Positions 3,481 to 61,340 of a DNA stretch of 64,000 bases are shown here, in pieces. Each line of letters begins with the position of its first letter. Within the stretch, counting starts at the first letter, position 1. A program made the position numbers and the translations under genes. Origin of the DNA: Gordionus sp. m RMFG-2023 (Eukaryota; Nematomorpha; Gordioida; Chordodea; Parachordodidae). Below the pieces are notes generated by a model that worked only from the letters and a program-made list of their open reading frames with translations, did not search any database and was not told the DNA's origin. Where the stretch lies: assembly GCF_954871325.1 (NCBI RefSeq), contig NC_088776.1, positions 59,916,954 to 59,980,953 on the forward strand, in the 5' to 3' direction.

Positions 3481-3526
<46 letters not shown>

Positions 3527-3838
3527 TTTCCTTCCTTCCTTCCTTCCTTCCTTCCTTCCTTCCTTCTTTCTTTCTCTTCTTTCTTTCTTTCTTCCTTTCC
3601 TTCTTTCTTTCTCTTCTTTCTTCCTTCCTTCCTTCCTTCCTTCCTTCCTTCCTTCCTTCCTTCCTTCCTTCCTTCCTTCCTTCCTTCCTTCCTTCCTTCC
3701 TTCCTTCCTTCCTTCCTTCCTTCCTTCCTTCCTTCCTTCCTTCCTTCCTTCCTTCCTTCCTTCCTTCCTTCCTTCCTTCCTTCCTTCCTTCCTTCCTTCC
3801 TTCCTTCCTTCCTTCCTTCCTTCCTTCCTTCCTTCGTT
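3480..3838. repeat. (CTTT)n / (CTTC)n microsatellite
   Basis: About 360 bp of pure pyrimidine on the + strand. It is CTTT-type from 3480 to about 3525, mixed CTTT/CCTT to about 3620, then essentially uninterrupted CTTC to 3836. The long Ser/Phe/Leu/Pro open frames over it are products of the repeat, not genes. Mirror-symmetric homopyrimidine tracts of this length can form triplex (H-DNA). Confidence 0.98.
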
Positions 3839-4667
3839 CCGTGTAGTTAAAATCTAATTTATTAAATTATAAAATATATAGGATGTGTCAAAAACATTAA
3901 AAAATTCAATTGGCTAGCTTTCGGAAAATTTTCCAATATAAATATAAAAAAGATTTTTTTGCAAATATAATTTATTAACATATTTGTGTCATTTGTTTTT
4001 TAAAAACATTTCATTTGTTAGAAATAAGATATTATAGAAAGCTTGTTACTTTTTTCCTATAGTCAACTTTGTATAAATATAAAATTAGGTTAAAACGAAG
4101 TTGACATTCAACATAAGACCTTACTTAGCTCAAAGCTAAGCGAAACACCAGATCAATGCAACATAGAAATTGCTTGGCGACTGCTATGATAGCTGAATAA
4201 AATGAGATAATGAACTTATAGCAACTCTAATAGAAATGAAATGCAATTACGTGGCCCCAAAATGGATACAACAAAGGATACATCTAGATACACCAATAAA
4301 TACAAGCAGTTTATACTCGAATTCATAATGTAAAATCTTTCCTATTCTACTTCATTCATTCTTTCCTTTTTATTATTTTTAAGGTAGATAAATAATGTTT
4401 TATTTTTTTCACTAACAAATTAATGATAAAATTTTTTGTAAAGTTAATTAATTTTCTAAATTTTTTTTATAGAGTAAAATGACTTGTTCACATATTGTTT
4501 ATAGAAGAAATCTACATTTTACATTTAAAATATGGCTTAGAATCTCTTATTATTATTGTTATCAATAATTGCACTGATATCAGAATAATAATTTTTAATT
4601 ATATAATAGTAAAAGTATATCAAATGTCATTTTATTCCAGTTAATTAATTGATTTAATTTAATAATA
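3839..4667. other. Gene-free AT-rich DNA
   Basis: No gene was recognised. The part at 4085-4320 is less AT-rich than its surroundings but has no long frame or known motif. Confidence 0.4.
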
Positions 4668-6556: not shown

Positions 6557-7906
6557 CTTATATTAAAATGCATGGACCTAATTTTATGATATACCCGGTA
6601 CATAGAAAATAGAATAAAAGGCCGCACACGAACTCTGCATTGGGCGCATTTTTAGGCCACCCGCTCGCCCACTCACCCGCCCTCACCTGACAGCTTAGCA
6701 ACCCATCCATCCACCTGATCTACCACCTGCCCGCCTTCTCGCCCACTCATCTGACTTCCGCCCGCTCTTCTTACTCAACCGCTCACGCGTTCGTTCATTG
6801 AATGGGCATTCGGATTTTTAAAAATATTTTCAAAAGTGGGCATGTGGCGGGCGGGAATAGATAAAAAAGAAGGGGCAGGCGGAAGGGCGGGTGAAATTAT
6901 ATAAAAATTAGAATTTTGCGGGTAAAATATTATGTTGAGCTCGATATTTTCCCCAGACCTTCATAGGGTGACTGACCCAGGCCAGGAGTCATGAGTGGGC
7001 GCCATATGTACAATATGTATTTTTATTAACTGGAAGAGCTGAGCCTAAATTTTTGTGTGGGGCCCAGTGGTCTTGTTCATTAGCTTATGTATCTGGTTTA
7101 TCCGATAAAATTAGGTCCATGCACTATATTTGTTAGCCCGATCAGGGTTTAAAATTACGGGCCATGGGCAGTCATCCTATGCAGGTCATTTATTTATGTA
7201 TTACAGCCATGGCATTACTTACCTTGGAAATTTTTATATATTTTTTAATAGATGATTATATTATTAATATAGCCATTTTTTAAATCTTTTTAAAGCTAGC
7301 AAAATAATTTTGTTTCTAATAAGTAATATTACATATAAACAGCTTACTCATCATAACTTACAAGACTTCGTCGAATTATTACATTGTAGCATATCTTCAT
7401 ATCTCTATCTCTAAAATTTAGATATTTAATTATATACTTTAATTTAATGATTTCATATTCATACAATTTGCATTATTATATCTACCTTAGAATAATTTGA
7501 TATCATACTGCTTTTTTACACCAATGCTAATCTATGTTCGATATTGTAATATTAACTTGTGCTTGTGTTTGGACTACCCTTTGTTGTTAAATATTTTGAA
7601 TACAATAAAGTCAATATTTAAATTTTATATACACTACTCATATATTAAATATCAGTTTAAAATTTTAGATATGAAGATAAAGAAATAATCTTTGAGATGC
7701 ATTCAAATATAAATTATCCATTTCACAACTATACCTGTTTAAACGTTGTTAGACAAAATTTAATTTATAAAGCATCATTCTAAGACTTTTGCCAATAATT
7801 ATCTCCGTGAAATTCTAACATACATTATTCAAACTAAAATTTTCAGACTTTATAAATTTAATGCATAAATAATAAATTAGAAATGAACCAAAACGTAGAG
7901 AGTTAT
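6557..7906. other. Gene-free DNA with C-rich then G-rich strand-skewed patches
   Basis: The + strand is C-rich (repeated CCCGCC and CCACC motifs) at 6650-6790, then G-rich (GGCGGGCGGG, GGGCGGGTG) at 6835-6900. The rest is AT-rich. A 63-codon frame at 7497 has no recognisable feature and is not called. Confidence 0.5.
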
Positions 7907-8262
<356 letters not shown>

Positions 8263-20062: not shown

Positions 20063-22605
20063 ATGAACAAATTTTTACACATTTTAGTCTTGCTTGTTGT
20101 TATCTTCTGCGAGTTCCATGGTAAATAAAATAACTATATCAATGTTATAAAGTTCTTATTTAATTTTTTAATTTAGAGGCTCAAGGTAAATATTTAAAAT
20201 TTTTTATATAAGAAAAGATTTTCAATTATATGCATTTTTTTGCTAGGTTTTTTTTTAAATATAAATAAATTTCTCATATTTTAAAGATAGAAAAGGATAA
20301 AATAATTAAATAAACTATTTATTAAACAGAAAACTTGTAAAATTAAAATTCCATGGTTATATAAAATAAATATTAAAACCTAATTGATTCATTAAGGAGT
20401 ATAAAATTATTTTCATCTATGTTAGAAGAGGCTTGATCCTTTAAAAAAAATATACATAAGAAAATCGAAATTTATTATTAAAGTTTCTTATTTTTTAAAT
20501 AAATACAATTAATATTATACAATCATTAAAGATTTCATTCAAAATTATTTTTTTAAATTATTAAAATTATTAGTTTATTTTTTTTTCCGGTCATTATTTG
20601 ATAACAGAATGTAATAGCATATAATAAATTTTTTTTAAAAATAAAATATTTTTCGAAAAAAGGCACTTGAAATTAAGATTATGCCGAATTTAATCTTTTA
20701 ATAAAATAAGAATATTAAGGATTTGTTTTTGTAAACGTTTTCAAGATTTCGCAAAATTGCAAAGTCGTAACCTAGGTAACCTCTTATCAGATGAACAATT
20801 AAGAGTTGCCATAGGCCATCGACTTGGATGTAACATTGTTCAACCACATACATGCATCAAATGTAAAACATTAGTTGACTCCAAAGGGAGACATGGTCTA
20901 AATTGTATATATAGTCAAGGCAGGCATGCAAGGCATGCAGCAATTAATTTAGCTATTAGCCGTTCTCTTACCAGGGCCCGAATACCAAACATCCTGGAGC
21001 CTACAAATTTATCGTTAGATGATGGCCTAAGACCTGATGGCTTAACTTCCGTGCCTTGGTCTTTAGGGAAATCCTTAATTTGGGACTTCACATGCGTATC
21101 TTCTTTCCCAAAAAATTTAAATTCTAATCCGGTTGATATAGCCGAGAAAAAAAAAACAATGAAATATTCCAAATTCACAAATTATATTTTTACACCGATT
21201 GTTATCTCTTCCCTTGGACATATGCCAAGTGGAACTTTAAAGTTTTTAAAAAATATAGGGGATAAGATAAGAGCCCTTACATCAGAAACTAAAGAATTTT
21301 ATTTCTTAAAACAAAACCTACAAATCTTAATTTTAAAATATAATTATTTTTGTTTTTTGGGAACTTGTAGTCCCACCACGGTTTTTATATAATATTTTTT
21401 ATTTTATTTTATCATGTTTTATACATCACGAATTTAATAAATAATAAAATGTAAAAAAATTTATAACATAAGTATATAAAATACAATTTTATACTTTCTA
21501 AATTCTAGATCAACAACTAAAGAAAATAGGTATCGATTTGAATTATTTTATAAATTTTTTATAAAAAGTTGGTAATAGAATGTTTCAAAATGTATTTTAA
21601 ATGTTTAATAATATAGAGTCGAAAAAACTAAATTTACTAAAAAATTGAAATCCTTATTTTAATAAAATTCAACTTGTCTAAAATAAAAAAATTAAGATTC
21701 ATAATAGTTTATAGATAAAAAAAATCAATAAACAAAATATCCTATATACTTAGTTGTATATCATCTTCAGCAAGTAACAATAAGATAGATAGAATTCTAA
21801 TAATAATGAAGCTATACATAACTAAATAAAATATATTGAGTAAAAGATGGCAAAAATAAGGGTTTAAATATTACCTCGAATAGAATCTTAGATCATCTTT
21901 TGTATATTTTGAGAGCTTCTCAATTATTCACTTTTTATTTCGACTAATTTTATGGAGTATTTTTGAAGATAAATGAAATGCTCGAAAATAATACTGTTCT
22001 AAGCTAAACTAGATAGATAGGTTATTAAATTATTTAATGTATTAAGGTACTGGTTAACATGAGTGAAGATTATTTTGTCCCTTACCCTAATTATTTTGTT
22101 TTTTAATTTTCATCATATATGCTTTTAGAATTTGTAACATTCATAACTTATTTTTATTTGCTATATGCTACTAAGTATATTAAAAAATTTCGATTTTTTT
22201 TATAAATAGACTATAATGATACTATTTTTTGTTATTCTTAAATAAAAACCATCCTAAAATCAGTAATATATTTATCTCATCGTAAATATTATCTTTGAAG
22301 TGCTTGTTATATTAAGAAAATGTATTGGATAAAATAAGCACTAGTGTAAAACAACTTGATTTATTTTTCCAATAAAAATCTTTATTACATTCTATGATTT
22401 TTTTTTTATTAATGCTCATTTTATTGATAAATTATAACCGAAATCTTTTTTATTATAAACTTTTCTCTTTCATAATATTTGAACAGTTGAAATAGCTAAA
22501 GAAATAAGTAATTTTTTGTTATTTCTTCTTAAAACATATACAAAACTTAAGAGTTTGAATCTTACATGATTTTATTTTACAGTCGTACTAAAATTAACAT
22601 CATGA
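20063..22605 (+). CDS. Candidate micro-exon gene A: small secreted protein
   Basis: Predicted exons are 20063-20120, 20177-20185 (9 bp), 21509-21529 (21 bp), 22497-22517 (21 bp) and 22583-22605 with stop TGA. Exon 1 encodes MNKFLHILVLLVVIFCEFH, a clear signal peptide (N-terminal Lys, Leu/Val/Ile core), and ends one base into a codon before GTAAAT. Exons 2-4 are open in phase 1, each a multiple of three, giving AQ, QQLKKI and EIAKEI; the end reads VLKLTS. Acceptors are AATTTAG, AATTCTAG, TGAACAG and TTTTACAG; introns 1 and 4 are 56 and 65 bp. The product would be about 43 residues and secreted; its function is unknown. Intron 2 contains a retroelement (20757-21405). Other exons may be missed, and no transcript supports the model. 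The alternative is chance splice-like sites in AT-rich DNA, which the homology with gene B argues against. Confidence 0.5.
20757..21405 (+). pseudogene. REL-type non-LTR retrotransposon, 5'-truncated copy with intact C-terminal domain
   Basis: An open frame of 211 codons (20757-21392) covers the end of a retroelement polyprotein. Residues 33-50 form a zinc knuckle with spacing C-x2-C-x9-H-x3-C (C33, C36, H46, C50). GRHARHAAINLAISR follows, then the restriction-like endonuclease with RPDG at 92-95, W101, GKSLIWDFT at 104-112 and the lysine cluster at 131-133, and the conserved tail ending LGTCS. The reverse transcriptase is absent and the frame opens at TTG, not ATG, so this is a typical 5'-truncated insertion, not a whole gene. 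It lies in intron 2 of candidate gene A. Compared with 1-590, it keeps the 10-A run that preserves the frame. Confidence 0.85.
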
Positions 22606-23039
22606 TAGATATTTGTTTTATAAATAGGGGTTTGCGCAATTGAAGGACTAATTTTCCCTTTTCTAATGCCAAAAATTCCAGATAGCTAAAATATCTTTCA
22701 AAAATATTATTGATTCTTACATCTTATCGCAAATATGCATTTATTTCTCAATTTTACAGTTTAAATTAATATGCTTCTAATTTATACTATGAATCAATAT
22801 TTTAATTTACTTTTTATACAATTTTGAAATTTCTCACAAAATTATTAGAAAAATATTCACTTCTCTACTAAAGTAAAATAATTTAACTCGATTTGATTGA
22901 GAATATGAGAATAGCTGTTATATCTGAACTTATGGAAGTTAGTGCAATGTATATGACGAATTTCATTATGTATTGTTGAGTCAAAAAAGTATTAAGATCT
23001 TTCCTACGACTTGCAGCCAGATGAATGAAAGTTTTTGAT
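22606..23039. other. Spacer between gene A and the hAT relic
   Basis: AT-rich with no gene recognised. A degraded upstream part of the hAT coding region may reach back to about 22920. Confidence 0.4.
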
Positions 23040-23660
23040 TATTCATACACTTAAAAGACTGCAAATATTATTATACATATTTCTTACCAAATCTATTTCA
23101 AATTTGGATAGAGGAAAAATTTGTGAAGATGTTAGTAGCATGATTAGATTACCAGTTGAATTCAAACTATAGTATAAAAGGTTAAATATGGTTAATAATC
23201 GTCCAAAAAATGATATAGATGTATTGCATAATTTGCAACAAATTTTTATTATTCTCTTAATATAAAAATTATTAAATATTTTGACAATTGTACTTATTAG
23301 TACATCTACTAATGAGAGAACATTTTTCACTTTAGTAAGAATAAAAACATACCTGAGAATTAGTATTATTTTAATAAGCTAATTTGAACCAATTTTTAGA
23401 AATGGCTATTTAATATTTTAGCCAAAAATACTGCCTAAGTATCGAGATTTGGCCAACATACGTTCAAGCCTTTATTCCATCTATGAGAAATGTCTTCAGG
23501 CTTGAGTAGTATTTTTCTGGATACAATAATGAGTTATCCATTTTAAAAATTTAGCATATATCTAACCATTTAACAACCGTTACAGAGAAATACTCTCTCT
23601 AAAGCTATACTTAATATACATAGGGATTTGACACCAAGCGGATGAAATCCTTATAAAAAT
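23040..23660 (+). pseudogene. hAT transposase C-terminal relic, split by a MITE
   Basis: Frames around 23060-23240 read RLQILLYIFLTKSISNL, then EFKL-YKRLNMVNNRPKNDIDVL, then KLLNILTIVLISTSTNERTF followed by FTLVRIKTYLR up to 23360. These match the hAT dimerisation domain (LLxIPxSTxxxERSFSxLxRIKTYLRNTM) of the ZMYM-like hAT group. The reading breaks at a MITE (23361-23582) and resumes at 23583 as RNTLSKAILNIHRDL, the expected continuation. Several stops and frame changes show it is dead. No N-terminal BED finger or catalytic part was seen. The - strand frame of 95 codons here is the antisense shadow. Confidence 0.75.
23361..23582 (+). mobile_element. hAT-like MITE, 222 bp, nested in the hAT transposase relic
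   Basis: The left end TAGTATTATTTTAATAAGC and right end CCATTTAACAACCGTTA are family termini. The core CCATCTATGAGAAATGTCTTCAGGC matches 43030-43070. Flanking octamers CTGAGAAT (23353-23360) and CAGAGAAA (23583-23590) agree at 6 of 8. The inferred original, CTGAGAAA, restores the transposase reading ...TYL-RNT. The insertion therefore post-dates the transposase copy. Confidence 0.75.
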
Positions 23661-24394
23661 TAACTAAAAGAAGATTAGATTTTAAATTATAAATTTATAA
23701 GATGTTTTTTATTATATTTTTTCCCATTTTTAATACACAATACTTTTTTTCCTGAATACTTTGTAAGTTTATGTACATGCTATTTCTTAAGAATATTTTT
23801 GTGCATTAAAATATATTTCTAATATTTTTTTAAAAGTTCAAATAATATTTATATATTTTTAAAAAGTTCCATTTGATAGAAATTTATTTTATAATGATTT
23901 ATACGCCGATTATATACGGTTTATATTTGAATTTATAGAAATTGTCAATATTATTTACAAGTCTTGATATATTAATGAAACCTAAATTACTCCTGGAATA
24001 ATTTATACAAAAATTTTTTTTTTACCCCCTCCTCTCTATAGCGAATTCCTTTATACGCGCCTGCAAAACACTATATACATATCTCCTACCATCATATATA
24101 CTATATTAAATATTAAAAATTTAATTCCCTACGAGAAAAATCATTTAAAGAGAGACTTATAAGTCTTAAATTTTGTCACGAAAAACAAACCATTATTTAC
24201 CAAGATTCGATATATGCTTTTTATAACAAGCATAGAGGAGGGCACTAAATTTACTTGGAAGAATTTCAATAAACACAATAAATTTCAAAATTAAAGGATT
24301 GAATATTTTATTGGCCAAATTATTTTATTTTTAATTTTAAGCAATTAAAATTTTTTTAATTTTAATTTTCACAGCTTCATTCCAATTTTATATA
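23661..24394. other. Gene-free AT-rich DNA with a C-rich element end
   Basis: At 24025-24065, read on the - strand, CAGGCGCGTATAAAGGAATT leads into a G-rich tract, resembling the start of hAT-group elements. No partner end was found. Confidence 0.35.
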
Positions 24395-24800
24395 AATTTT
24401 TATCTAAGGGCTGTTACAAGCGAAGAGAACTAAAAAAATAATTAAATGAACTTAACTACGCATCTTAATTTTTTATCTTATTTAAAATAACAAAACAGTG
24501 TCAGTTTCAGGTAAATATAAATGTTATTTTAAGGGGCTTATTCAACCACTATAATTGTACATTTTAAAAAGAAAGTAAGTTAAATGAATTAGTAAATTTT
24601 TATAAATATTTGTTACAAGGGAACTAAAAAAATAAAATGAACTCAACTACGCATCTTAATTTTTTATCTTTTTTAAAATAACAAAACATTGCCAGATTCA
24701 GGTAAATATAAATGTTATTTTAAGGGGCTTATTCACTATAATTGTATATTTTAAAAAGAATAAGTTAAATGAATTAGTAAATTTTTATAAATATTTCAAA
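24395..24800. repeat. 199-bp direct repeat, 2 copies, with splice-like 6-bp segments
   Basis: GTTACAAG at 24413 and 24612 marks two copies of a unit containing ACTACGCATCTTAATTTTTTATC. In each copy a 6-base segment (TTTCAG 24505-24510; ATTCAG 24696-24701) lies between an AG and GTAAAT, as a phase-1 micro-exon would. Upstream pyrimidine tracts are poor, so exon status is uncertain. Confidence 0.7.
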
Positions 24801-25246
24801 AATAAATTATCTTTGCACATTTACTATATATTAAAACATTTGAGAAATCAATGACTCAAAAATGAATATTTATAATTATATCTTTTTATATTATTTTTAA
24901 AAATTACCTTTAGAAGAATAAAACTTATAACAAATTAAACCTTAATTAAAAAAAATAACCATTTTGATTTTATAGATTGATATTATTACTAAATGACAAC
25001 TCGTCACACTCTTTCCTATATTAGCGTTAGATTAGAAGTTAAACATTTTCTAGTAATTTACTTTAGTTGAAACGCTCATCCCGATCATATTTTCTTTAAT
25101 GGTAAACTAGATTCTTTGATTTCAAAGAATATTTTATTACAAAATGACATTTTAATCGATTGTAGAAATAAATGAATGTGTGCTTGTCGTATAACGGATC
25201 CTAATTTACCCTCCTTCTAGATAATATACTACAAGGGGAAAGAATT
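24801..25246. other. Spacer upstream of candidate gene B
   Basis: AT-rich with no coding sequence recognised. No good TATA box like that of gene A; the nearest is GTATAACGG at about 25189. Confidence 0.35.
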
Positions 25247-28200
25247 ATGAAGGGATATCTTTTTAGTAAAATGGTATTTTGCTTTCTCTTCTGTATTGGT
25301 AATATAAATTAATTCCCTTGTTAAATGGCCAGTAAAGCAATCGATCTCTCACAATTTTTTTCAAATATTCTTAAAATATTTTAATATATAATTCATATTA
25401 TAGAAAAACCTAGTATGATATGTGAAAAAAATATTATAATATAATTAACAAAATTTTAAACTAATTTTGTAGTGTTTTTACGAATAATTTGTTTAAGTTT
25501 TGTTTCGTGCATTTATACATTAAATTTCTTCCTGAAAGTAGGTTAAATTAAATTTGACGAATTTAAAAAAAATTGAACTACCGAAATATTCTTCATTTGA
25601 GATAAAAATTAGAAGGTTTTAATTTTCAAACTATAAGTTCATATTTTAAATTATATTGATAATCATATTAATACTATTTGCTTTATTTTATATTATTTTA
25701 GAACTTTTCCGAGATTTATGTGAGTTAAATTTACAATAAAATTAATTTATTATCAAATTTATTAATGAATATTTTATATTATTATTCTACTTATAACTAA
25801 ATTTTTAATTACGCATTCGCTCTAAAGGTTCTTTATGAGTTTGCATTGTGTAAAATTTAATCTAAAATATTAAGATTATTGTGTCAGTTAAAATTAACAA
25901 TTGTTTAAATTAATCTAAGAAATCTTTTAACACTTTCATGAGAGAGAGATGATAAAGGGGAATAAAGCAGCTTATATTACTTGCAACGTTTTCTTTCTTA
26001 ATAAAATATAATATCATATTATTGTTATTTTTTAATGTACAATGTAAAATTATGTTTAAAGATTACTATATTTTGTTATTATATAAACCCCATATATTTA
26101 CCTTAATTTCTCAAATATTTATAGGATCTCATCAAAATATTTTCCTAAATAAAATCTAATACTTTTTTTTGCTTTATAGAGAATTATTGGCTCATTGCAA
26201 TTCATAATTCATTTTCTTTAGCAATTTTTAATTTTTTATATTTAAAATCTGATTATTAATCTTAGCTAATTTTTTTTAAGTTGTTGTTAGCATTAAAATA
26301 AATATCAAAATAATAAGTTATAAGTATTATCCCGCGGGGATTAATATTTATTAATTTGATCATTTTTAATATAAAACTACATAGATTATTGTGCAATTAA
26401 TAATTCAAAATAAATACCTTCACACTATATTTTTATAAAATGATCTAATTTCTGTTTTCCAAATGGAATTATTACCTTTTTGTTAAAATGTTATAAGATT
26501 CCTGATATTACACTAGATTTGAATATTCGACTGCTATTGAAATTTTACGAAATTTTATATTAACTTATTTGAATAAAGTTTTTTATTCATTTGTTGATAG
26601 TAGACTTACTTATATGTGATAAATTAACCCGTTATTAATTTTCTGAATAATATTATAAAATAAAAATTTATTTATTTTCTTGATTGAGTAAGGAACATAC
26701 GAAATATATTAATAAATTCCTGAATTACTAATTCATGTTTGATTTTAGTGTCTATGATCATATATATTTTACGTAACTGTTATATGGAGAATATCATATC
26801 TTAATATTCTAAAATTATTAATATTAGATATAATTATGAGTCCTTTTAATTTGCAACATAGGAGGTTTTTATATTTAAAAGATTTAATAATAGGCGTTAC
26901 TAAGGATACCAATTTTTTTAACGATATTTACTTGAAGTAAAAATATAGGATTTTTAATTCTTTTCAATAGTAATATAACTCATCATATGAAGTTAAATGT
27001 TAATAATTCTATACAAAATAATTACTGAAAAAACTAAAAATTAATCATTTTTAACTTTTTTTAATATTTAAAATAAATAATTCAGCCTATGATAGCAAAA
27101 TATTTAGTTTAATAATTTAACTATTTTAGACATTACATTTATTATAGTGTAATTAATAAATTAAAACCTACATATTATATTTTTATTAATGATATTATAT
27201 CTGATTTTGTCTAAATTTTAATTATTATCTATTTTTTTTTCTTATCTATTATATTAATATTCATGCTTTCTATTTTTATCTTTGTATTTCTGATCGATTT
27301 CATTTGTATCGATCACCAGTCTATCATTTTTGAGGCCAAAGTATCTGGTGCAAATCCTTATCTCGCATATATTTGTATTTCTGATCGATTTCATTTCGAT
27401 CACCGGTGTATCACTATCGAGGCCAAAGTATTTTGATCTCCCTCACCGTTGTATCAAATTAATATCGACCAAATATCCTACCTGAGTATTCCTCACACTG
27501 AATTATCAAATCGACAGATATCGTAATCCTGATCTCCCACTGGTATCACCTGATAGATCTCCCACCGGAGTATCGTTATCAAGTCCATAACTTGGTAGAC
27601 ATTGAGCTTAAACGGCCCCCGAGGTCACCATCATCTTAGCACTGGCCAAGAAATCGTTACGATCCAAACCTGTCGATGACCGGGGTAACATTTCTCAGCT
27701 CAGAATTTATCATATGTCTAAAGCCATACATCATCGAAGAAAACCCAAATATTTTTAGCTCCTTACAAGGATTGAACCTGCGTCCATCTGTTTCCACGCA
27801 CACATCTAACCCATTAGGCCACCCCCGGCGATAATTATTAGCAATTTTGTTAAAATTTTATAAGGTTCTTGATTCTACATTAAATTTGAATATTCGATTA
27901 ATATTTAAATTTTACGAATGCAATTTTATATTTGAAATAAATAATTCCAATCTTATCAAAATAATTTCGTATAAGTATTATCCCTCCTCGATTAATTTTT
28001 AATAATTTAATTACTTATATTGGACAATACATTGATTATTGTGTAATTTATAATTCAAAAAATTACCTACATACTATAATTTTATTAAAATATTATTTCT
28101 AATTTTGTCTAAATTTTAATTATTATATATTAGGTTTAAAAAAGTTTTTTATTCATTTGTTGATAGTAAACTTAATTAATTGTGATAAATTAGCCTGTTA

Positions 28201-31200
28201 TTATTTATTGTATTCTTGATAATATTTTAAAATATAATATAATTATTTTCTTGTTAAGTAGAAACATATGAAATATATTTATAAATTCCTGAATTAAAAA
28301 ATCATCTTTTATTTTAGTGGAATTTACGAGTAAGTAATACATTTTGCGTAATTGGCCTATAAGAGGATATCATATCTTAATATTATAAAATAGACAAAAT
28401 ATAAGTTATCATATAATAATGGGTAGAATTCTCTATTTATTTTGCCCAAACATTTTTATATTTAAAGTATCTATTATGCTATAGGCAATTCTAGCTATAC
28501 CAATTTTTTTAACGATTAATAGTTGATTATTGTGTTATTAATAAATCTTAATTATTACCTATACTATATTTTTTTAAATGATATTATTTCTTATATTGTC
28601 TAAATTTTAATTATTAGACAATTTGTTAAAAGTTCCTGATTCTACAATAGATTTGAATATTCGACTGATATTAAATTATACGAATACAATTTTTTATTAA
28701 TTTGTTTAAAATTTTAGGTTTAAATAAGGTTTAATTCATTTGTTAAAGTAGACTTATGATAAATTTGCCTATTATTATTTTATGATATTCTGGATAATAT
28801 TTAAGAATAAACATAATAATTTCTTTAATAAGTAGAAACATACGAAATATATTTATAAATTCCTGAATTGATAAATCATCTTTTATTTTAGTGGAACTGA
28901 GTCCCTTAAGTAATTCATTTTGCGTAATTGGCCTATGAGAGGATATCCTATCTTAATATTAAAAAATGGACAAAATATAAATTATCATATAATGATGGGT
29001 AGAATTCTCCATTTATGCACAAACATTTTTATTTAAAATATCTTATATGGTATAGGCAATTCAAGCTATACCAATTTTTTTAACGGTTGATTATTGTGTT
29101 ATTAATAAATCTAAATTATTTCCTGCATAATATATTTTTATAAATGATATTATTTCTTATATTGTCTAAATTTTAATTATTAGCCAATTTGTTAAAATGT
29201 TACAAAGTTCCTGATTCTACAATAGATTTGAATATTCGACTGATATTAAATTATACGTATACAATTTTTTATTAATTTGTTTAATATTTTAGGTTAAAAT
29301 AAGGTTTAAATCATTTGTGAAAGTAGACTTATGATTTGCCTATTATTATTTTATCGTATTTTGGATAATATTTTAAGAAATAAATATAGTAATTTCTTAA
29401 ATAAGTAGAAACATACGAAATATATTTATAAATTCCTGAATTTATAAATCATCTTTTATTTTAGTGGAAATTCCGGGAATAAGTAATACATTTTGCGTAA
29501 TTGGCCTATGAGAGGATATCCTATCTTAATATTATAAAATTGACAAAATATAAGTTATCATATAATAATGGGTAGAATTCTCTATTTATGCATAAACATT
29601 TTTATATTTAAAGTATCTATTATGCTATAGGCAATTCTAGCTATACCAATTTTTTTAACGGTTGATTATTGTGTTATTAATAAATCTAAATTATTACCTG
29701 ACTATATTTTTATAAATGATATTATTTCTTATATTGTATAAATTTTAATTATTAGCCAATTTGTTAAAATGTTACAAAGTTTCTGATTCCAAAATAGATT
29801 CGAATATTCGACTGATATTAAATTATACGAATACAATTTTTTATTAATTTGTTTAAAATTTTAGGTTTAAATAAGGTTTAATTCATTTGTTAAAGTAACT
29901 TATGATAAATTTGCCTTATTATTTTATGGTATTCTGGATAATATTTTAAGATATATATATAATAATTTCTTTAATAAGTGGAACATACGAAATATATTTA
30001 TAAATTCCTAAACTAATAATTCATATTTTATTATAGGAGAAATTGTTGGCCCAGGTATATTTTACTTAACTGGTGTATGAAAGAATATCTTAATATTATA
30101 AAATATATAAAATATAAGTATAATTATGGGTAGAATTCTCTCTATATTTTGCAAAAACATAGGAGATTATAATATTTAAAAGATCTTTTATGGTATAAGC
30201 GATTCTAACAGTACCAATTTTTTTAAAATAAGTATACTTGAAAAAAATATATAGGATCCTTAAATTCGTTTTAATATTTTAAAACTTATCGTATAAAAAG
30301 AGTTATTAAATTATCTGCGATAAATTAGCCTTTATAGTTACTAATTTGTCTCAAATATATAAAAACATAAGAAATATATTTCTACATTCATGAACTAATC
30401 ATTTATGTTTTATTTTAGAGTTTATATGGGAGATAAGTAATGTATTTGATTTTCTATTACTATTTGAATATTGACTGATTTACGAATACAATTTTATATT
30501 TAAATTTTTAGGTTTAAAAATTTATATTTGTTTATAGAAGACTTTATTTAGTTAGAATAAATTATCCTTAATTTGTGTTAAATAAATAGAAACATAAGAA
30601 GTAACTTTATAAATTTCCGCTAATAATTCATGTTTTATTTTAGCGAATATTGCGAAAATAAGTAATATATTTTGATTTTACGTTACTGACACAAGAAGAA
30701 ATATCATATCTTAATATTGTAAAATTTATCAAATATCATAGACATGTAGAGGTACCATAGCTCGACCAAGTCTTGATTGTAAAAAATTTGCTCATACCCG
30801 ACTTTTTTTAAAATATTTTGGCGCAGATTCCTTTAAAAAAACATTTTGGTCATGGGTAAATTTTTTTTAGGTCTTATTTTAAAAGAAATTTAATATACCT
30901 TGGTCTTTTTAGATTGTTTACAGCTAATCTGACTTAATTAATAATAAATTTTCAAATTATTTTATCTCTCCATTTGTCATAAAAGGAGTGGGTTTGAATC
31001 ATAACACCGTCTGGCCAATGGTAATTTCCTTATTTCCTGTTCCTCTAATAATTTAATATGGTATAATATAAATCTCAGTTATTTTGGACTCTCTTTCAGA
31101 TAGAGAAAAAAGGAGAGACATGATGATGTTTATAATAACAAAAAAAATTTTCCCCTTAAAAGGTTTATATTATAAAAATTGAGTATACGCCTGCTTTTAA

Positions 31201-32451
31201 TTTGATAAAATATCACCTAAAATAGTGATTATTTGAATAAATCAATTTAAATAATATTTTAGATATATTTTTTAAGGATAAAAAAAAACGTAAATAGGAA
31301 ATATGAAAAATGAATCGGCCCGACCCGAGTACTATTTTAACAAATATTATAAGCCATGCCCTAGGCTTAGGGTCTGGTCTCACGTCTCTGCCGATATATT
31401 TATGTGTAAGGATTCTTATTTATCTCTAAAACATAGGAGATAAATTTTTGAATACGATATGGGCCGATACTACCGATATCAACCTTTTTCAATAAAGGTC
31501 TACTTAAAAAAATATAGGAATCTTAAATTCCTTTTGATATTTAATAAATTTATTGTTATTCCGACCTATCTAGAATACTAACCTTATAAATTTCAATTAA
31601 TTTTTACAATATACTTTTGTAAATTTTATTACTTAGATGAAAAAAAAATATATATAGAAAATTACAAATTAAGAGTATTTCAAAATATCTTATGCATGTT
31701 GGATGCATCTCCGATTTTTTTCAAATTCAAAAATGGCCTAAGTTAATTATTTGAAATCGAGAGATTTTGAATCCCAATGAGTTCTATATCCCAATACCAC
31801 ATACATAGATTAATACCAAAATGACGTCTTCAGCTGACCTCTATCTAAGATTTTAATCAATGATTCTTCAGACTAAACTGATATATTAATGCCTGTTTCT
31901 AATAACCAAAATAATCCTCATAATAGAAGGGGTGTATGCAGGGTTGACCAAATAGGATCGTATGAGAATTGAATGGCCATATAATTATGACATTTGAATA
32001 TCAAATTGAAATGAAAAATATTTTATATTTTTATATTTTACTTCCAAAATAAATTTAACTTGGATATTTTTCTGATAAATTGAGTCCTATCTGAAAGATA
32101 CTTTTTGGTTGGTTAAATCTAAACATTTATTTTTTTAAATAACCATATTTTAATTATTTACAACTATTATTATAATATATGCTTAAAAAAAACTTCTAAA
32201 TCAAATTTAAATTTTAGAATTATTGAGAACTAATTAAATTTAATTGATAAAACTTTCCCATCCCCTACTCAACAACAGGCTAATTTATTTCACACCATAT
32301 GAATATATAACTTTCTATTTAAAATTCGCAGAAGAGATAACTGAAGAAATAGGTAATAAATAATATTATTAAAAGTAATGATGACTAAAAATTTTTTCTA
32401 TCCTTTTTAGAGAAATATGTCCTGAAGCTAAGTACTGTATTTCATTCATAA
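25247..32451 (+). CDS. Candidate micro-exon gene B: secreted protein from an expanded exon array
   Basis: Exon 1 (25247-25298) encodes MKGYLFSKMVFCFLFCI, a signal peptide, and ends one base into a codon before GTAATA. Proposed internal exons, all phase 1 and multiples of three: 25404-25412 (9 bp, weak), 25702-25719 (LFRDL, donor GTGAGT), 28318-28329 (EFT, donor GTAAGT), 28892-28909 (ELSPL), 29465-29482 (EIPGI), 30037-30054 (EIVGP), 30419-30436 (FIWEI), 30644-30661 (NIAKI) and 32332-32352 (EITEEI). A 24-bp exon at 26748-26771 is possible. The terminal exon 32411-32451 gives KYVLKLSTVFHS then TAA, with AATAAA at 32450. Junction codons are all sense. The product would be about 80 residues and secreted; function unknown. 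Because all internal exons are symmetric, any can be skipped in frame. The six array exons are also open in phase 2, so the phase call rests on the first and last exons. Confidence 0.5.
26450..30730 (+). repeat. ~575-bp tandem array, each unit with one micro-exon
   Basis: The marker ATTTTGCGTAATTGGCCTAT recurs at 28341, 28917 and 29490 (spacing 576, 573) with diverged forms at about 26775 and 30060. Shortened units continue at about 30405 and 30645. Each unit has CTGATTCTAC, AGATTTGAATATTCGACTG, a TTTTATTTTAG acceptor, a micro-exon (18 bp in five units, 12 bp in the first clear one) and a GTAAT-type donor. A unit is interrupted by the SINE at 27228-27832. Decay increases towards both ends. 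Confidence 0.85.
27228..27832 (-). mobile_element. tRNA-derived SINE, 605 bp, with target-site duplication
   Basis: On the - strand the element starts at 27832 with a tRNA-like head. An A box TGGCCTAATGG lies at 27821-27811 and a B box GGTTCAATCC at 27778-27769, both matching the RNA polymerase III promoter consensus with tRNA-like spacing. The body carries several GATCxCCxxC(C/T)GGxGTATC-type repeats. The 3' end is A-rich (27228-27255 is T-rich on the + strand). The octamer AATTATTA flanks both sides (27220-27227 and 27833-27840), and the surrounding array sequence continues across the site (TTTTAATTATTAG...CAATTTTGTTAAAAT). Mobilised by a LINE in trans. Confidence 0.8.
30731..32331. other. 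Last long intron of candidate gene B
   Basis: AT-rich. A GC patch (CGGCCCGACCCGAGT) lies at 31317-31331. No further micro-exon with a convincing acceptor and donor was found. Confidence 0.35.
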
Positions 32452-32455
32452 TAAA

Positions 32456-34685
32456 AAAATAAGAAAATTTTGGTATTTTGGAAAGATTAAATAGTATATT
32501 TTAAATAAGATCCTCTCAATCGTTCAATTTATTTAAAATTTTCTATATAGATCCTAGTTTTATTTGTGGGGATTAATTTAAGATTGCTTTAAATAAAAAT
32601 TAATAAATTTAATGTTAATTCAAATAAAATTTTATATTTCTAATGTTGATTTAATCGTTCCAACAAAAACAATGAATCTAGTGATGTTAAACGACTAAAT
32701 TTAGTCAACAAAGAATAATTAGTAAAATATGATGTGTATCCAAAAATTTTATTTTTATAAACTATACTTTGTAAATTAAATATAATTTTCATGATGCAAC
32801 CTATCTTAATAATTTTTTTAAAATTTGAATCATTTTTATATTAATTTTGTTATATGTAAAAGTGCATTATCATGTAAAATATAAAGATGAAAGGGAAAAA
32901 TTTCAAAAAGCAGGATGTTTTGGATATAGTCGAGTCTTTTTAAGTCTTGCTTTTAAAATTAAAAATAATTTATTTTTAATTGTAATATTAAAAAAAATGA
33001 AATTTAATTAAACTTTAAATTCAGATTTGAGGTTCATATCATATTTTATTTAAATTCTTTGTCTTCCCTAATTTTAAACACAGTAATTTAAATAAGGAAT
33101 AAATTTTTAGGTCATTTCTTTGATTTATTAAATCACAAATAAATTGTATATTTTTTCAATTTTTAGTTAGTGAAGGTAAAAATATATCTATCATAATTTT
33201 ATTTATTTATATTCGAAATTGGTAGCTGAATGGCCCCTAAATGTTATTTTAAATATAATTTTTGTTTATAATAATAGAATAATAAAATTAATTTGAAAAT
33301 AAAATTGTCTCTATTTAATAATATATTAAGGCAAAAATTAAGCTATGATATTATGATGAGAGATAAATATATTTTTATCTATTTGAAATTCAACCTTATT
33401 AGTGTTATATATAAAATTTGTAATCCTTGTTAAAAAATCTTTATTGTGGAAAAACATTCCTTTTTTTCTTTTCTCTTCAGATTTTTTATATCTCCATTTG
33501 GCTTTTATATAACTGGCAAAAAATAAAAAAATTTTATCGTTATATTTTTCTTTATAAATAATAAAATTATTTTATTTACTGAAAAAAGAATATTAATTAA
33601 TTAAACAAAAAACTCGTCAAAATAAACGAATTTCACCTGAACCTAGAAAAAACCTGTGAAACATGAAAGAAGAAATATTTTAATAATAATTATTACTTGC
33701 CAAGGTTAGAAGAATCTTGTCTCTATTTATTGAAAATGATTGAATGTGAAATCAAAAATAAGAAAATTTAATATTAATATCTAAAAAAAAATTCCTTAAA
33801 CATAAATATTTTTTAAATAATTGCTATTTTAAGTTAAAATTATATATTATATTGTGCAATAATTAGAATTTTAATCATAATAAATTTAAATTAATGTTAT
33901 TTTTATAAAAAATATATATTAAAATTTTATAAAAACTAAAAAAAAATAATTAACCAAAAAAAAATTTGACATATTTATCATATATTATCATAATTTCTAG
34001 TATTCGTTTCAAATTTTTGACTCAAATTACAAATAAAATTACTAACATTTTAAATTTTTTAAAATAATTTTAAATGATAACATGGTTTAAAAATATATAT
34101 TTAAAATATATGTAAAATATTAAATAATAATAAAATATCATTTTTCAATATAAAAAATATTTAATATTAATTTTGTTCTGATTACATTTATAAATATTAT
34201 ATAAAATAGATGTTTAAATAACTTTAAATACAATAATTTTAAATATTTTTTTTTAAACTTGCCTTAATTTGCAAAAATTCATGAGACTATACAATTCAGG
34301 AAGAAAAGGAATTCTAATTTATTAATCCTACATCCAATCATATTATGATTATATCATTTATTTTAAAGCCTATCTTCAACCAAAGCGATAGTCAATTGAT
34401 TAATTCTCCAAATTACTTGCGAAAAAGCATCTAGATGAATCACACTGCACTAATTATATTTATCATTTCTCAATCAATAATTTCACAAAGATTCTCAAAA
34501 AAATGACTTCCCTTCTCATATCGGATATTTCCATGCCTTTTTTTTGTTTGGCTGATAATATTACCTTCTTCCATGAAAAGCTTGCGTCATTTCAAGTATA
34601 TTATTATCCACCATTTTTACTTAATTATGACCCATTCAATACAATATAATTTTTCTTTCCCCTTTCATAAACATAACCAAAAATA
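32456..34685. other. AT-rich DNA with a possible isolated micro-exon
   Basis: At 33167-33175 a 9-bp segment (TTAGTGAAG) lies between CAATTTTTAG and GTAAAA, resembling exon 2 of gene A. A possible terminal segment at 33645 reads KTCET-stop. No signal-peptide exon was found, so no gene is called. A TAGTGATGTTAAACGAC motif at 32679 looks like a MITE left end without a partner. Confidence 0.3.
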
Positions 34686-46710: not shown

Positions 46711-49020
46711 TTCTTTTTTCCCCCTTTTATATATATTCCTCAGTCTTTCAATCTTTTATTTACTTTAACCATTACATTTATTAAAACAAATGACCAACCT
46801 CTACCAAACACCAACCAACCCTAAAAACCTTTATGCCCATTTTTTCCTCTCATATTTAATAACCTTATCTTTACAACATCATTATTCTCAGCATATTATT
46901 TCTTCTTACTCTCTGTCACATCCCCATTCTCTACACAATTATTCAAACCTTTCCTTATCCACATAATGGTACACTATCCCGTTAAAAGTTACCAAACCTG
47001 GCCTCTTCACCAAACACAAAACCAATGGCATCGTTTGTCCTGAGTCCGGAAAACAACCTTCTACTTCCTTCCTAAACCCCCTTTCCATTTTTTCTACTCA
47101 CAGATACTCTTCCACCTCATCACGTCCACATACAAACCACATCAGTCACATTTATTCCCCCCAAGATATCACCCATGGCGATATCATCAACTTCCTAAAA
47201 TCCGACAAATCTCCCATTATCTCTAGAATTCCTAAAGGCTCCAGAGTACAAGTAACCAAAGCCCTCTCCACATGCCTTCAATTATTATTAAATAACCTCC
47301 TCCTTCGATCATTGGCTCAAACTCTTCACATTTTCCTTCACGACTCTCCAACCCCCCAATCCAGAGATTCAGAAATCTCTAACCCAACAAATTAAGGACG
47401 CAACCTTACATCCCCTCACCCTCACAACCAAAACATCTTCTCATGTACCCATAAAACTTTCCAACCTACAAATAAAGGCAAAGTTAATTTCCAACAAAAT
47501 TAACAACTTAAACAATCCGCTCTTCGCTTAGTAGTTTCTAATGATTCATTTGCTACTAGTAACGAAGAAAGTTTTAACAAACTCAAACTAAAGCACCCCT
47601 CCGGACAGCGTCTACATGACAGGATTTTCACTGGATGCAAACCCTCTTCAAAAACCTTCGCCCTAAAAAAATCCCCGCCTTTGGCGGCATTGTTTTCTTA
47701 TTATTGTTTTTACCTTTTAAATTTATTGATACTCTTTTCAGAGAATTTATAAAGGAAAACTTAAATTAATCTATCTCTACTACCAACTATCGATATTTTG
47801 TGAATATAAATAATTTATTTTTTAGATAAATTAAAACCTCCATCATTTACAATGAATTAATTATTATGGCATTATGAGCTTGCTGAAATGATAGCAGAAA
47901 TTATTTGGAAATTTAATAGATAACCCCCCAAAAAATTTATCTTACCACCATTAAAGCAGCCTACCCCTTACTCCCATTAAAGCAGCTTTCCCCCTACCCC
48001 TCTCAAAAAAAATAGGATGCAAACTGTTCCTACCCCTCTCGCTCATGTAGACGCTGCCTCCGGAGTTGATTTCATACCTCCACCTTCTCCCAATAGTTTT
48101 CCTTCTGATTTTACCCCGCCGAGGTGCGTAAATCTATTATATCCTTTCATCACGACTCTTCTCCCGGTTACGATGGACTTGGTCCCATCTTCCTCCAGGA
48201 TCTCACATCCCTCTCATAGTCAGCCAGATCCCAATTTTACAAAATTTAACAACATTTTGTAACAAAATAGCACACGGCCTCGTTCCCGAGTCCATCAGAC
48301 CACTCTTATTCGGTGCTAAACTAATCGCACTCGAAAAACTTAATAAGGATATCCGCCCAATTACAATCGGAACCGTATTTCGCCGTCTTGTCGCTAAATT
48401 AATATCTTCCAAAATTAAGGACAACGCAGCCTTAATTCTAGCTCCTCATCAACTTGGAATCGGCATCCAAGGAGGCTGCAAAATAGCCGCACACGCTACT
48501 CGTATCCATCTCCAAACCAACCCAAGTAACAAAATCCAAATTGATTTCTCTAACGCCTTCTTCCATTCGCCGCTCTCACTTTCTCCCACAAATGTACCAC
48601 TCATTCCCCATCGTTTCTCAATTCTTCCATTCTTGCTACTCCAAGCCATCTCATCTCAAATTCAACAACTATTTATTTTCATCATCTGAAGGGATCCAAC
48701 AAGGCGATCCTTTATCGATACTTTCTGCATTGGAATCAACGAAATAGTCAGAAACATTTTTTCCAACTGCAATCTCCCTCTTAAAACTTGGTACATTGAT
48801 GACGGAATACTCTGCGGTCCCCCTAATGAGGTTGCTAAGGCACTCACCATTATCAAAACCCATTCAACCACAACTTCCACAAAACCGAACTCACATCCTT
48901 CAGTCATCTAGGCTCTCCAGTCGGTGGCCTGGAATCCATCAATTACTTCTTAACTAACGCATCATCCAGCTTACTTCATTTCAAAAACATCTCTAAGTTT
49001 CTCCTCCCACATCAGTGTTT
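46711..49020 (+). pseudogene. REL-type non-LTR element: 5' region and reverse transcriptase, decayed
   Basis: The longest piece of the family. In order: leader and N-terminus to about 47110 (KTNGIVCPESGK); GDIINFLKSDKSPIISRIPK with SRVQVTKALSTCLQLLLNN and DHWLKLF to about 47330; ALRLVVSNDSFATSNEESF with NKLKLKHP at 47520-47605; an inserted 372-bp element; PPPSPNSF; EVRKSIISFHHDSSPGYDGL (about 48121); then reverse transcriptase motifs RPITIGTVFRRLVAK, APHQLGIGIQGG, IQIDFSNAFFHS (motif A aspartate), QQGDPLS (motif B), TWYIDDGILCG (motif C, YIDD) and HLGSPVGG near 48910-48935. The catalytic residues remain but frames change many times, so no enzyme is made. Homology stops near 49020; the linker, knuckle and endonuclease are missing. 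Confidence 0.85.
47643..48014. mobile_element. 372-bp insertion in the retroelement with 10-bp direct flanks
   Basis: GGATGCAAAC occurs at 47633-47642 and again at 48015-48024, bracketing a segment whose interior is AT-rich and unrelated to the retroelement. It begins CCTCTTCAAAAACC, contains CCCCGCCTTTGGCGG (a small hairpin), two copies of CCCATTAAAGCAGC near its end, and finishes CTCAAAAAAAATA. The A-rich end and the duplication suggest a short retroposed element (SINE-like) on the + strand. No pol III boxes were identified. Confidence 0.6.
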
Positions 49021-49934: not shown

Positions 49935-50385
49935 AATTCAGCGAAACCTTTATCGCGAAACACTTTTCGCGAAACTTTTATCGCGAATCCAAAATAGCGA
50001 ATACTATTCCGCGAATGCAATATCGCGAATTTTTTATAGCGAACTTTATAGCGAAACCTTTATAGCGAATACATTACAGCGAATACATTACCGCGAATAC
50101 AATATCGCGAATTTTTTATAGCGAAATCTTAAATGCGAATACATTACCGCGAAACTTTTATCGCGAATCAAAAATCGCGAAAAATTTTATAGCGAAATCT
50201 TTATCGCGAAATCTATAAAGCGAATACATTACCGCAACTTTAATTGCGAATCAATAATCATGGAAAAATTTTTATAGAGAAGTTATTATCACGAAACCCA
50301 AATCGCGAAGACAATGTAACGACAATTATTTCGCGAAACATATATCGCGAAGATATTGTAGAGAATTTAATATCGCAATAATTGT
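49935..50385 (+). repeat. GCGAA minisatellite, ~15-bp period
   Basis: About 30 units of the type GCGAAxxTTTATC recur with roughly 15-bp spacing, many containing the palindrome TCGCGA. Sequence between anchors is variable (TTTTTTATA, TACATTACC, CCTTTATA). The 87-codon frame at 49858 is a repeat artefact. Confidence 0.9.
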
Positions 50386-58750: not shown

Positions 58751-59860
58751 CAAAAATTGTGCATTTTGGAGAGAAATTGTAGCAATAGTCACACTTTGGA
58801 CTTTTATGACCCTTTTTATATTTTTTAAAAATTTATTCATTAGCGAATAAACGTGATTTTAAAAAATATATATAAAAAGATTGAGAATATATTGAAAAAG
58901 AACATTTTTTTTTCAAAAACGAAAAATACGAATTATTAATTTAAACTCTAATTGTGCATTTTGGAGAGAATTTGTAGCGATAGTCACACTTTGGGCTTTT
59001 ATGGAATGACCCTTTTTATATTTTTTAAAATTAGCTAATAAATTTAAAAAATATACATAAAAAGATTGAGAATATATTGAAAAAGAACATTTTTTTTTTC
59101 AAAAACGAAAAATACATTAATTTAAACTCTAATTGTGCATTTAGCGATAGTCACACTTTGGGCTTTTTTAGAATGACCCTTTTTATATTTTTTAAAAAGC
59201 TAATAAACGTGATTTTAAAAAATATACATAAAAAGATTGAGAATATATTGAAAAAGAACATTTTTTCTTCAAAAACGAAAAATACGAATTATTAATAAAC
59301 TATAATTGTGTATTTTGGAGAGAATTTGCAGCAATAGTCACACTTTGGGCTTTTATAGAATGACCCTTTTTAAAAAATTATTCATTAGCTAATAAACGTG
59401 ATTTTAAAAAATATACATAAAAAGATTGAGAATATATTGAAAAAAACATTTTTTCTTCAAAAACGAAAAATACGAATTATTAATTTAAACTATAATTGTG
59501 CATTTTGGAGAGAATTTGTAGCAATAGTCACACTTTGGGCTTTTATAGAATGATCCTTTTTATATTTTTAAAAAATTATTCATTAGCTAATAAACGTGAT
59601 TTTAAAAAATATACATATAAAGATTGAGAATATATTGAAAAAGAACATTATTTTTTCAAAAACAAAAAATACGAATTATTAATTTAAACTATAATTGTGC
59701 ATTTTGGAGAGAATTTGTAGTAATAGTCACACTTTGGGCTTTTATAGAATGACCCTTTTTATATTTTTTAAAAAATTATTCATTATCTAATAAACGTGAT
59801 TTTAAAAAATATACATAAAAAGATTGAGAATATATTGAAAAAGAACATTTTTAAAAAAAA
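58751..59860. repeat. ~190-bp satellite, six units
   Basis: The marker TGTGCATTTTGGAG (or variants) starts units at 58759, 58953, 59134, 59307, 59497 and 59696 (spacings 194, 181, 173, 190, 199). Units contain AGTCACACTTTGG, GAATGACCCTTTTTATA, ATAAACGTGATTTTAAAAAA and AAAAAGATTGAGAATATATTG. Length differences are mostly small deletions. Frames over it (59077) are not genes. Confidence 0.95.
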
Positions 59861-60234: not shown

Positions 60235-61340
60235 TCTAGGTGTTAAACATTATCCTAAATAATATTTTGAAATGATTTGATCGAATGCCGAGCTCAAAAC
60301 CGACCACTTACTAAATATTCGATCGATTAAATTTTGTGTTAATATTATTTGGAAAATAATCATTTTTGGTTTATTTATCTATATATACGTGTAAATCATT
60401 ATCCCAAAAAATATTTTAAAAATACGTGATTCGACAGAAAACCGATTTGAAACCAGCCCAATGACTAAATACTGCCTTGCTGGCGTTATACATGAAAATT
60501 TCTTCATTTTTGTTTTAGGTGAACAATAAGGTAGCATTATTCTAATAAATTTTTTGAAAATTAAGATTTGACCGAATGGCAAGCGACCACTTACTAATTA
60601 TTTGATCGACCAAATTTGGTAGTAATATTATTTTAAAAATGTTCATTTTTGGTTAATTTATCTATAAATACGTGCAAATCATTATCCAAAAAAATATTTT
60701 TATCGTGATTTGACCGATAACCGATTTGAAACCGAAATACTGTCTTGCTGGCGTTATACATAGAAAATTCTTCATTTTTGGTTTATACGTGAACAATATA
60801 TGTTAAGCATATACTAATTAATTTTTTGAAAATATTATGGTTTGACAGAATGCCAAGCCTAAAACCGACCACTTACTAAATATACGATCTACCAAATTTG
60901 GTAGTAATATTATTTGGAAAATGTTCATTTTTGGTTAATTTATCTATAAATACGTGCAAATCATTATCCCAAAAATTTTTTAAAAATATCGTGATTTGAC
61001 CGATAACCGATTTGAAACCGAAATACTGCGTTGCTGGCGTTATCCATGGAAAATTCTTTATTTTTGGTTTAGGTGAACAATAAGGTGTTAAGCATTATCC
61101 TAATAAATTTTTTGAAAATATTAAGATTTGACCGAATGGCGAGCTTAAAACCCACTTACTAATTATTCGATCGACCAAATTTGGTAGTAATATTATTTGG
61201 AAAATGTTCATTTTTGGTTAATTTATCTATAAATTCGTGCAAATCATTATCCAAAAAATATTTTAAAAATATCGTGATTTGAACGATTTGAAACCGAAAT
61301 ACTGCGTTGCTGGCGTTATCCATGGAAAATTCTTTAATAA
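60235..61340. repeat. ~283-bp satellite, four units
   Basis: GACCACTTACTAA-type markers at 60302, 60585, 60867 and about 61150 give periods of 282-284. Units contain TGTTCATTTTTGGTTAATTT, ATACGTGCAAATCATTATCC and TGCTGGCGTTATCCATGGAA. Unrelated in sequence to the satellite 375 bp upstream. The 67-codon - strand frame at 60379 is part of it. Confidence 0.95.

Follow-up and report, generated by a model that had tools for sequence, protein, structure and literature searches.

A probable secreted micro-exon gene in the horsehair worm Gordionus, belonging to a duplicated family with a signature of diversifying selection

The window analyzed herein is a 64,000-nucleotide stretch of contig NC_088776.1 (59916954-59980953; hereafter C2) of the horsehair worm Gordionus sp. 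m RMFG-2023 (Nematomorpha), and carries on its plus strand what is very probably a secreted micro-exon gene, a family member with the exon chain modeled in Table 1. By comparison with its paralogues, the gene would extend over about 20063-33512 (window positions), i.e., ~13.5 kb as against the 7.2 kb proposed in a first-pass annotation of this DNA. The predicted chain probably comprises a signal-peptide exon, approximately 15 internal exons of 9-24 nt, and a short terminal exon.

Table 1. Predicted exons of the gene and its tandem cassette array (window positions)
Feature	Position	Strand	Length, encoded residues or content	Support or remarks
Exon 1	20063-20120	+	start codon and signal peptide MNKFLHILVLLVVIFCEFH, ends in phase 1	4/4 aligned blocks, 14/14 copies
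Exon 2	20177-20185	+	9 nt, AQ	AG and GT kept in 3/4 aligned paralogues; 8/14 copies by eye; weak to moderate
Exon 3	21509-21529	+	21 nt, QQLKKI	6/6 homologues with AG, GT, length a multiple of three, phase 1 open
Exon 4	22487-22507	+	21 nt, EIAKEI	6/6 homologues with AG, GT, length a multiple of three, phase 1 open
Exon 5	24499-24510	+	12 nt, SVS	5/5 homologues; 12 or 15 nt in paralogues
Exon 6	25702-25719	+	18 nt, LFRDL	7/8 homologues; 21 or 24 nt in paralogues
Cassette exon 7	26749-26772	+	24 nt, SMIIYIL	strong splice sites; otherwise only in P2
Tandem cassette array	28017-30300	+	four ~570-bp units, each one 18-nt (or 12-nt) exon with intron flanks	exons 8-11
Cassette exon 8	28318-28329	+	12 nt, EFT	GTAAGT donor; least certain internal exon
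Cassette exon 9	28892-28909	+	18 nt, ELSPL	11/15 homologues
Cassette exon 10	29465-29482	+	18 nt, EIPGI	21/25 homologues
Cassette exon 11	30037-30054	+	18 nt, EIVGP	11/15 homologues
Cassette exon 12	30419-30436	+	18 nt, FIWEI	13/13 homologues
Cassette exon 13	30644-30661	+	18 nt, NIAKI	18/19 homologues
Exon 14	32332-32352	+	21 nt, EITEEI	7/7 homologues
Exon 15	32411-32431	+	21 nt, KYVLKL, donor GTAC	7/7 homologues; internal
Exon 16	33167-33175	+	9 nt, SE	4/4 homologues; 12 or 15 nt in paralogues
Probable terminal exon	33481-33512	+	FLYLHLAFI, stop TAA 33510-33512	moderate support

The gene belongs to a duplicated family with neighbouring and dispersed copies. In the searched assembly (287 Mb, 267 contigs), close paralogues were located on C2 at ~54.49, 55.96, 56.16, 56.21, 56.25, 56.29, and 56.31 Mb. 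The labels P1, P1b, P2, P3, P4, P5, and P6 are used for close paralogue copies, and W for the window copy; P1 and P1b are near-identical. A second, more distant paralogue group was found on the same contig at 58.41-58.53 Mb (L037-L040, L042, L044, and L023), in which exon 6 was retained as a 21-nt phase-1 exon in L038-L040, as judged by eye, and no 18-nt cassettes were detected in the stretches scanned.

The signal exon was searched for on the plus strand over 14-26 kb as an ATG-started hydrophobic open reading frame (ORF) followed by a donor, with conservation in the paralogues being required, and the signal peptide was judged from sequence alone. Exon 1 emerged as the one clear case, having close relatives in all four aligned paralogue blocks. 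In addition, a DNA search with the 5' region returned 30 matches, 15 of which spanned exon 1 (13 on C2; at least 15 loci). The ATG and an open signal peptide were present in all 14 copies inspected from the 15 loci, and the indels therein were solely of 3 nt.

This exon lies 5.2 kb upstream of the signal exon given in the first-pass annotation (25247-25298). The latter falls within intron 5 and was rejected, its start or frame being lost in all five aligned close paralogues: the start codon reads ATA in P2 and TTG in P1 and P1b, P6 has no ATG, and in P3 the ATG is followed by a stop after six codons. As for its counterparts at seven places in the distant group, four run into a stop after 2-6 codons, one lacks the ATG context, and two (L044 and the copy at 58.511 Mb) hold an ATG and an open hydrophobic frame up to GT, both of which end in phase 0, unlike the phase-1 chain.

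The 3' end likewise had to be redrawn. The segment 32411-32455, formerly read as the terminal exon with its stop, was rejected because a GT donor at 32432 is kept in 7/7 copies, which makes exon 15 an internal 21-nt exon, and the AATAAA that overlaps this segment was missing at the aligned place in 6/6 paralogues, as read from the alignment. A further micro-exon (exon 16) was recognized downstream, and the acceptor, frame, and stop position of the probable terminal exon were shared by W, P1, and P6 among five aligned copies (by eye). An alternative frame of exon 15 (CPEEKY-like, in which two frequent changes would be silent; by eye) was dropped, since it would require phase-2 introns, and in that phase exon 14 runs into a stop, and since phase 1 shows the lowest divergence at third positions (0.10). 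That the ends first proposed are correct after all, or that 25247-25298 is an alternative first exon in some copies, appears highly unlikely. This candidate is open and hydrophobic in the window and ends in phase 1, and the two distant-group places with a hydrophobic frame slightly raise its odds; it is nevertheless broken in every aligned close paralogue, its open distant copies do not fit the phase-1 chain, and both the signal exon at 20063 and the donor after 32431 are conserved.

To establish the chain itself, all AG..GT pairs of 9-60 nt within 18.0-33.96 kb were projected onto the paralogue alignments, with at least four homologues and 80% conservation as thresholds. The conserved elements comprised 13 with a length divisible by three (3n), one of the 3n+1 class, and three of the 3n+2 class. 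Among the 13, phase 1 was open in 11 (10 distinct, 22496-22507 being nested in 22487-22507), phase 0 in one, and phase 2 in three, all of which were open in phase 1 too. Eleven other dinucleotide pairs used as controls yielded 0-3 elements each, 10 in total, against 11 for AG..GT (3n, phase 1). Two comparative scans with permissive alignment settings performed poorly, giving 0 and 1 element, because of spurious AT-rich matches. Among the 49 copies of the eight non-cassette exons for which both splice sites could be aligned, none had a stop in phase 1, 26 had one in phase 0, and 26 had one in phase 2. Moreover, all 41 paralogue copies chosen just for an intact aligned AG and GT were 3n long; 15 of them differed in length from the window copy, always by multiples of three. 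As the exons were found with a demand for phase 1, their openness in that phase is partly built in, and the length and between-class comparisons are the fairer tests. Computation thus established the exon chain and its phase.

The first-pass annotation had reported tiny exons bounded by AG and GT, all multiples of three and open in phase 1, and ten such exons are indeed present, from 25702-25719 through 32411-32431. The ends 25702, 32332, 32352, and 32411 had been fixed by it beforehand, from one copy. Only the outer junctions were named in it. The exons at 20063-20120, 20177, 21509, 22487, 24499, 33167, and ~33481 had been overlooked.

A splice-site weight matrix was also run over ten stretches, with neither frame nor a multiple of three being demanded. 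It detected 32 short exons in 8/10 stretches, i.e., 25 of 18 nt, two of 24 nt, two of 15 nt, one of 16 nt, and weak ones of 26 and 37 nt, and the 16-nt exon has a frame-keeping 12-nt alternative. The training set of the matrix consisted of phase-1 exons from these genes with lengths of 3n, so this outcome is consistent with the chain rather than independent of it. For exon 8, the competing form is 16 nt long, frame-breaking, and ends at 28333; its donor, 4 nt downstream of the GTAAGT donor, is homologous to the donor of the other cassettes and scored higher with the matrix.

Since each exon can be compared with its own introns, selection is directly measurable in this gene. Divergence in the exon exceeded that in the intron flank for exons 3 (0.39 against 0.15, +0.24), 4 (0.28 against 0.12, +0.16), 5 (0.49 against 0.17, +0.32), 6 (0.42 against 0.22, +0.20), 14 (0.29 against 0.15, +0.13), and 15 (0.27 against 0.16, +0.10). 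Among 295 control segments, an excess over the flanks of 0.20 was reached by none, 0.16 by one, 0.14 by six, and 0.11 by 18; exons 3, 5, and 6 are therefore beyond the controls, and exons 4, 14, and 15 are in their upper tail. Divergence at the first, second, and third codon positions was 0.54, 0.21, and 0.11 in exon 14, and 0.22, 0.47, and 0.10 in exon 15.

Pooling of seven non-cassette exons over 93 copy pairs gave a proportion of nonsynonymous differences (pN) of 0.37, a proportion of synonymous differences (pS) of 0.14, an intron-flank divergence of 0.16, and a nonsynonymous-to-synonymous rate ratio (dN/dS) of 3.26; this count left out exon 2, the pair P1-P1b, pairs whose members differed in length, and any copy lacking either splice site. 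Bootstrapping placed the pooled ratio at 2.1-6.9 over copies and at 1.5-7.6 over exons (0.3% at or below 1). The same exons read in phases 0 and 2 gave dN/dS values of 0.35 and 0.51, and the signal exon over 14 copies gave 0.40 (pN 0.17, pS 0.36). Such a clear excess of amino-acid change, with synonymous sites diverging at the pace of the introns, is what diversifying selection leaves behind on a phase-1 chain that is translated. The original claim of a secreted micro-exon gene resembling those of schistosomes is hence strongly supported by this amino-acid excess, by the splice sites and frame kept among paralogues, and by the conserved signal exon at 20063, although both ends proposed for it failed.

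As shown in Table 1, the middle of the gene consists of cassette exons, four of which lie in a tandem array, and their duplication is evident from the comparison of units. One array unit used as a DNA query gave at least 24 scored genome matches, all at family loci on C2. Between one (P4, P6) and seven (window copy) cassettes were detected per full or partial copy, the seventh of the window copy, exon 11, being under the matrix threshold. Across 25 of the 18-nt cassettes compared, a stop occurred in phase 1 in 0, in phase 0 in 18, and in phase 2 in five, and the second in-frame residue was isoleucine in 23 (by eye). Overall, a divergence of 5.4% separates the units of exons 9 and 10, and the two exons are distinguished by substitutions together with a pair of 3-nt indels that compensate each other; ungapped, the exons show 9/18 differences at a flank divergence of 3%, much of which is explained by these indels.

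Two observations on neighbouring tracts may be added here. A 1.14-kb tract around exon 7 (26107-27238) is 98.6% identical to P2 (C2, 56.2527-56.2538 Mb), the identity between the two copies outside it being ~72-92%, and would represent a recent exchange or gene conversion among family members. Because its P2 counterpart sits within this tract, cassette exon 7 is without independent support. Exon 5 lies in a 191-bp tandem duplication (24423-24796); the corresponding acceptor AG is missing from the second copy, which gives the impression of an exon duplication at an early stage.

Several points weigh against this interpretation of the locus. The exon set was partly picked by the same conservation scan that is cited as evidence, and the copies compared are related to one another, P1 and P1b being nearly the same sequence. 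Several paralogues look partly decayed: the exon-2 donor is lost in P5, the terminal acceptor AG is lost in P4, the terminal exon of P3 has an early stop, and the signal-exon search listed no match at the P1 or P3 loci. Support for exons 2, 7, and 8 and for the terminal exon is slender. With regard to selection, exon 16 was weakly above its flank (0.25 against 0.16) and the terminal exon was level with it (0.16 and 0.16), dN was not above dS in exons 3 and 5 taken singly, and the signal exon too exceeded its flanks (0.18 against 0.10), chiefly at third positions. In gapped alignments of the cassette units, the exon was the most divergent 18-nt window in 1/6 unit pairs, and the cassette dN/dS was just 1.2-1.4, with a raised dS. 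As this raised synonymous rate is partly an alignment effect of the indels, it was not leaned on, and the case for positive selection on the cassettes is a weak one. Finally, the predicted protein gave neither a protein-database match (E ≤ 10) nor a Pfam match (E ≤ 1).

Some of these features are those expected of a decaying non-coding repeat family, in which AG..GT pieces would be open by descent rather than by use: many paralogues have damaged parts, duplication links the 18-nt cassettes to one another, and within a unit the exon is not consistently the part that diverges most. Against such decay, amino-acid change in the non-cassette exons is higher than intron divergence, synonymous change is not, and this holds in phase 1 only; furthermore, length changes are multiples of three without exception, and the signal exon is under purifying selection across 14 copies. 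We therefore consider a decaying repeat scarcely credible, and return to the gene as modeled.

The predicted protein, assembled from 17 exons, has 115 residues with no cysteine beyond the signal peptide; it matched no database protein at E ≤ 10 (17 word-sharing candidates) and no Pfam family at E ≤ 1. We infer that the chain is spliced and its product secreted. In the proposed working, exon 1 would supply the conserved signal peptide, the approximately 15 phase-1-bounded exons of 9-24 nt would supply blocks of two to seven whole codons plus a split codon per junction, and the short last exon would end the protein. Because every internal exon is frame-neutral, a block may be added, lost, or skipped with the frame intact; in-frame skipping would be possible for every internal exon, and cassettes are presumably skipped in some transcripts. 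The cassettes would multiply through tandem duplication of an exon with its intron flanks, and the non-cassette blocks would diversify under positive selection, a likely use being a variable pool of secreted proteins directed at the arthropod host.

This architecture recalls that of the schistosome micro-exon genes (MEGs). MEGs are described as having a signal peptide followed by strings of 6-81 bp exons, mostly multiples of three (PMC10526429), and as having very small symmetric exons and a mature part whose dN/dS exceeds that of the signal peptide (PMC4350168). Similarly, the Gordionus gene would have an N-terminal signal peptide encoded by its own 5' exon (14/14 copies), and 15 predicted internal exons of 9-24 nt, all in phase 1, which make up most of the coding sequence. 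Intron sizes are likewise comparable, at 56 to 1,991 nt (2/16 below 0.1 kb) as against ~0.1-5 kb in MEGs. Unlike MEGs, in which 15 nt is typical and which belong to flatworms, the gene of this nematomorph has typical exons of 18-21 nt and contains exon-plus-intron cassettes duplicated in tandem. The Gordionus gene may thus work like a MEG, the likeness being one of architecture as described rather than of compared MEG sequences.

In venom-type gene families, introns are more conserved than exons and the signal peptide is conserved, and the exons are few and of ordinary size. The Gordionus exons are likewise more divergent than the introns, whereas their variation sits in micro-exons. The gene also resembles the bicycle genes of aphids, phylloxerids, and scale insects, which form a secreted multigene family with many micro-exons almost all in one phase. 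Bicycle exons are, however, longer than 9-24 nt, and the CYC motif, C-x(n)-Y-x(n)-C, is absent from Gordionus, whose predicted mature protein has no cysteine; moreover, bicycle genes belong to plant-feeding insects and Gordionus is a nematomorph parasite of animals. From annotation-file usage, "phase 2" as applied to bicycle genes was taken as equal to the phase-1 introns of Gordionus. Almost all internal bicycle exons are in one phase, called phase 2, and some bicycle homologues lack the canonical CYC motif (PMC9168663). No report of micro-exon secreted genes in Nematomorpha was found in the literature covered, which did not include this species' genome paper.

The step toward the host is drawn from the analogy with schistosome MEGs and bicycle genes together with the parasitic life of the worm, and we give a host-facing role of the variable protein pool an even chance. 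The family might instead serve the worm's own fast-evolving biology, e.g., as seminal or egg proteins or antimicrobial peptides, an explanation that rivals the host-facing step only. Positive selection, as found here on predicted secreted proteins, is also typical of secreted reproductive and immune proteins, and nothing in the present evidence points to host contact. On the other hand, a signal peptide, tiny symmetric exons, and a higher dN/dS in the mature part have been described for secreted schistosome proteins (PMC4350168). A role in the worm's own biology is accordingly a tentative but serious possibility. Turning back to the host-directed reading in its full form, horsehair worms would possess an independent MEG-like system, in which tandem-duplicated, frame-neutral cassettes of ~6 residues and positively selected micro-exons would be spliced in combination into a secreted pool aimed at the arthropod host; we regard this as slightly less than an even prospect.

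Other features of the window include retrotransposon-like ORF fragments (read from translations) at 20694-21392, 46967-47395, and 48132-48689. The first of these, inside intron 2, shows a 69% match to Gordionus protein P0001 and is one of at least 150 scored genome matches to this protein (5,859 candidates); the last gave no match in the database search. P0001 itself was located at 99% on contig C1 of the assembly, and the match to Gordionus speaks against an aphid or phylloxerid origin of this DNA. Tetranucleotide arrays of ~89 units each, open in several frames, occupy 3482-3840 (CTTC) and 7906-8262 (TCTT), and tandem arrays were observed at 49940-50296 (GCGAA-rich units of 14-85 bp), 59142-59852 (3.7 copies of 199 bp), and 60274-61334 (3.8 copies of 283 bp). 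Scanning the window for Rfam families and tRNAs gave no match, and no exact run of six TTAGG telomere repeats was present anywhere in the assembly.

Horsehair worms are known for manipulating host behaviour, and if the host-directed system is real, the family members would be candidates for immune evasion or for behavioural manipulation of the host. The protein database searched did not contain the predicted protein, so annotated secretomes may lack genes of this kind. Confirmation of splicing would provide candidate host-interaction proteins with exact exon coordinates in a phylum with few annotated genes (10,819 in G. montsenyensis; PMC11603191). It would also mean that micro-exon secreted families arose in one more group of animals, in addition to flatworms and sap-sucking bugs, and would point to a general route to fast-changing secreted proteins in parasites.

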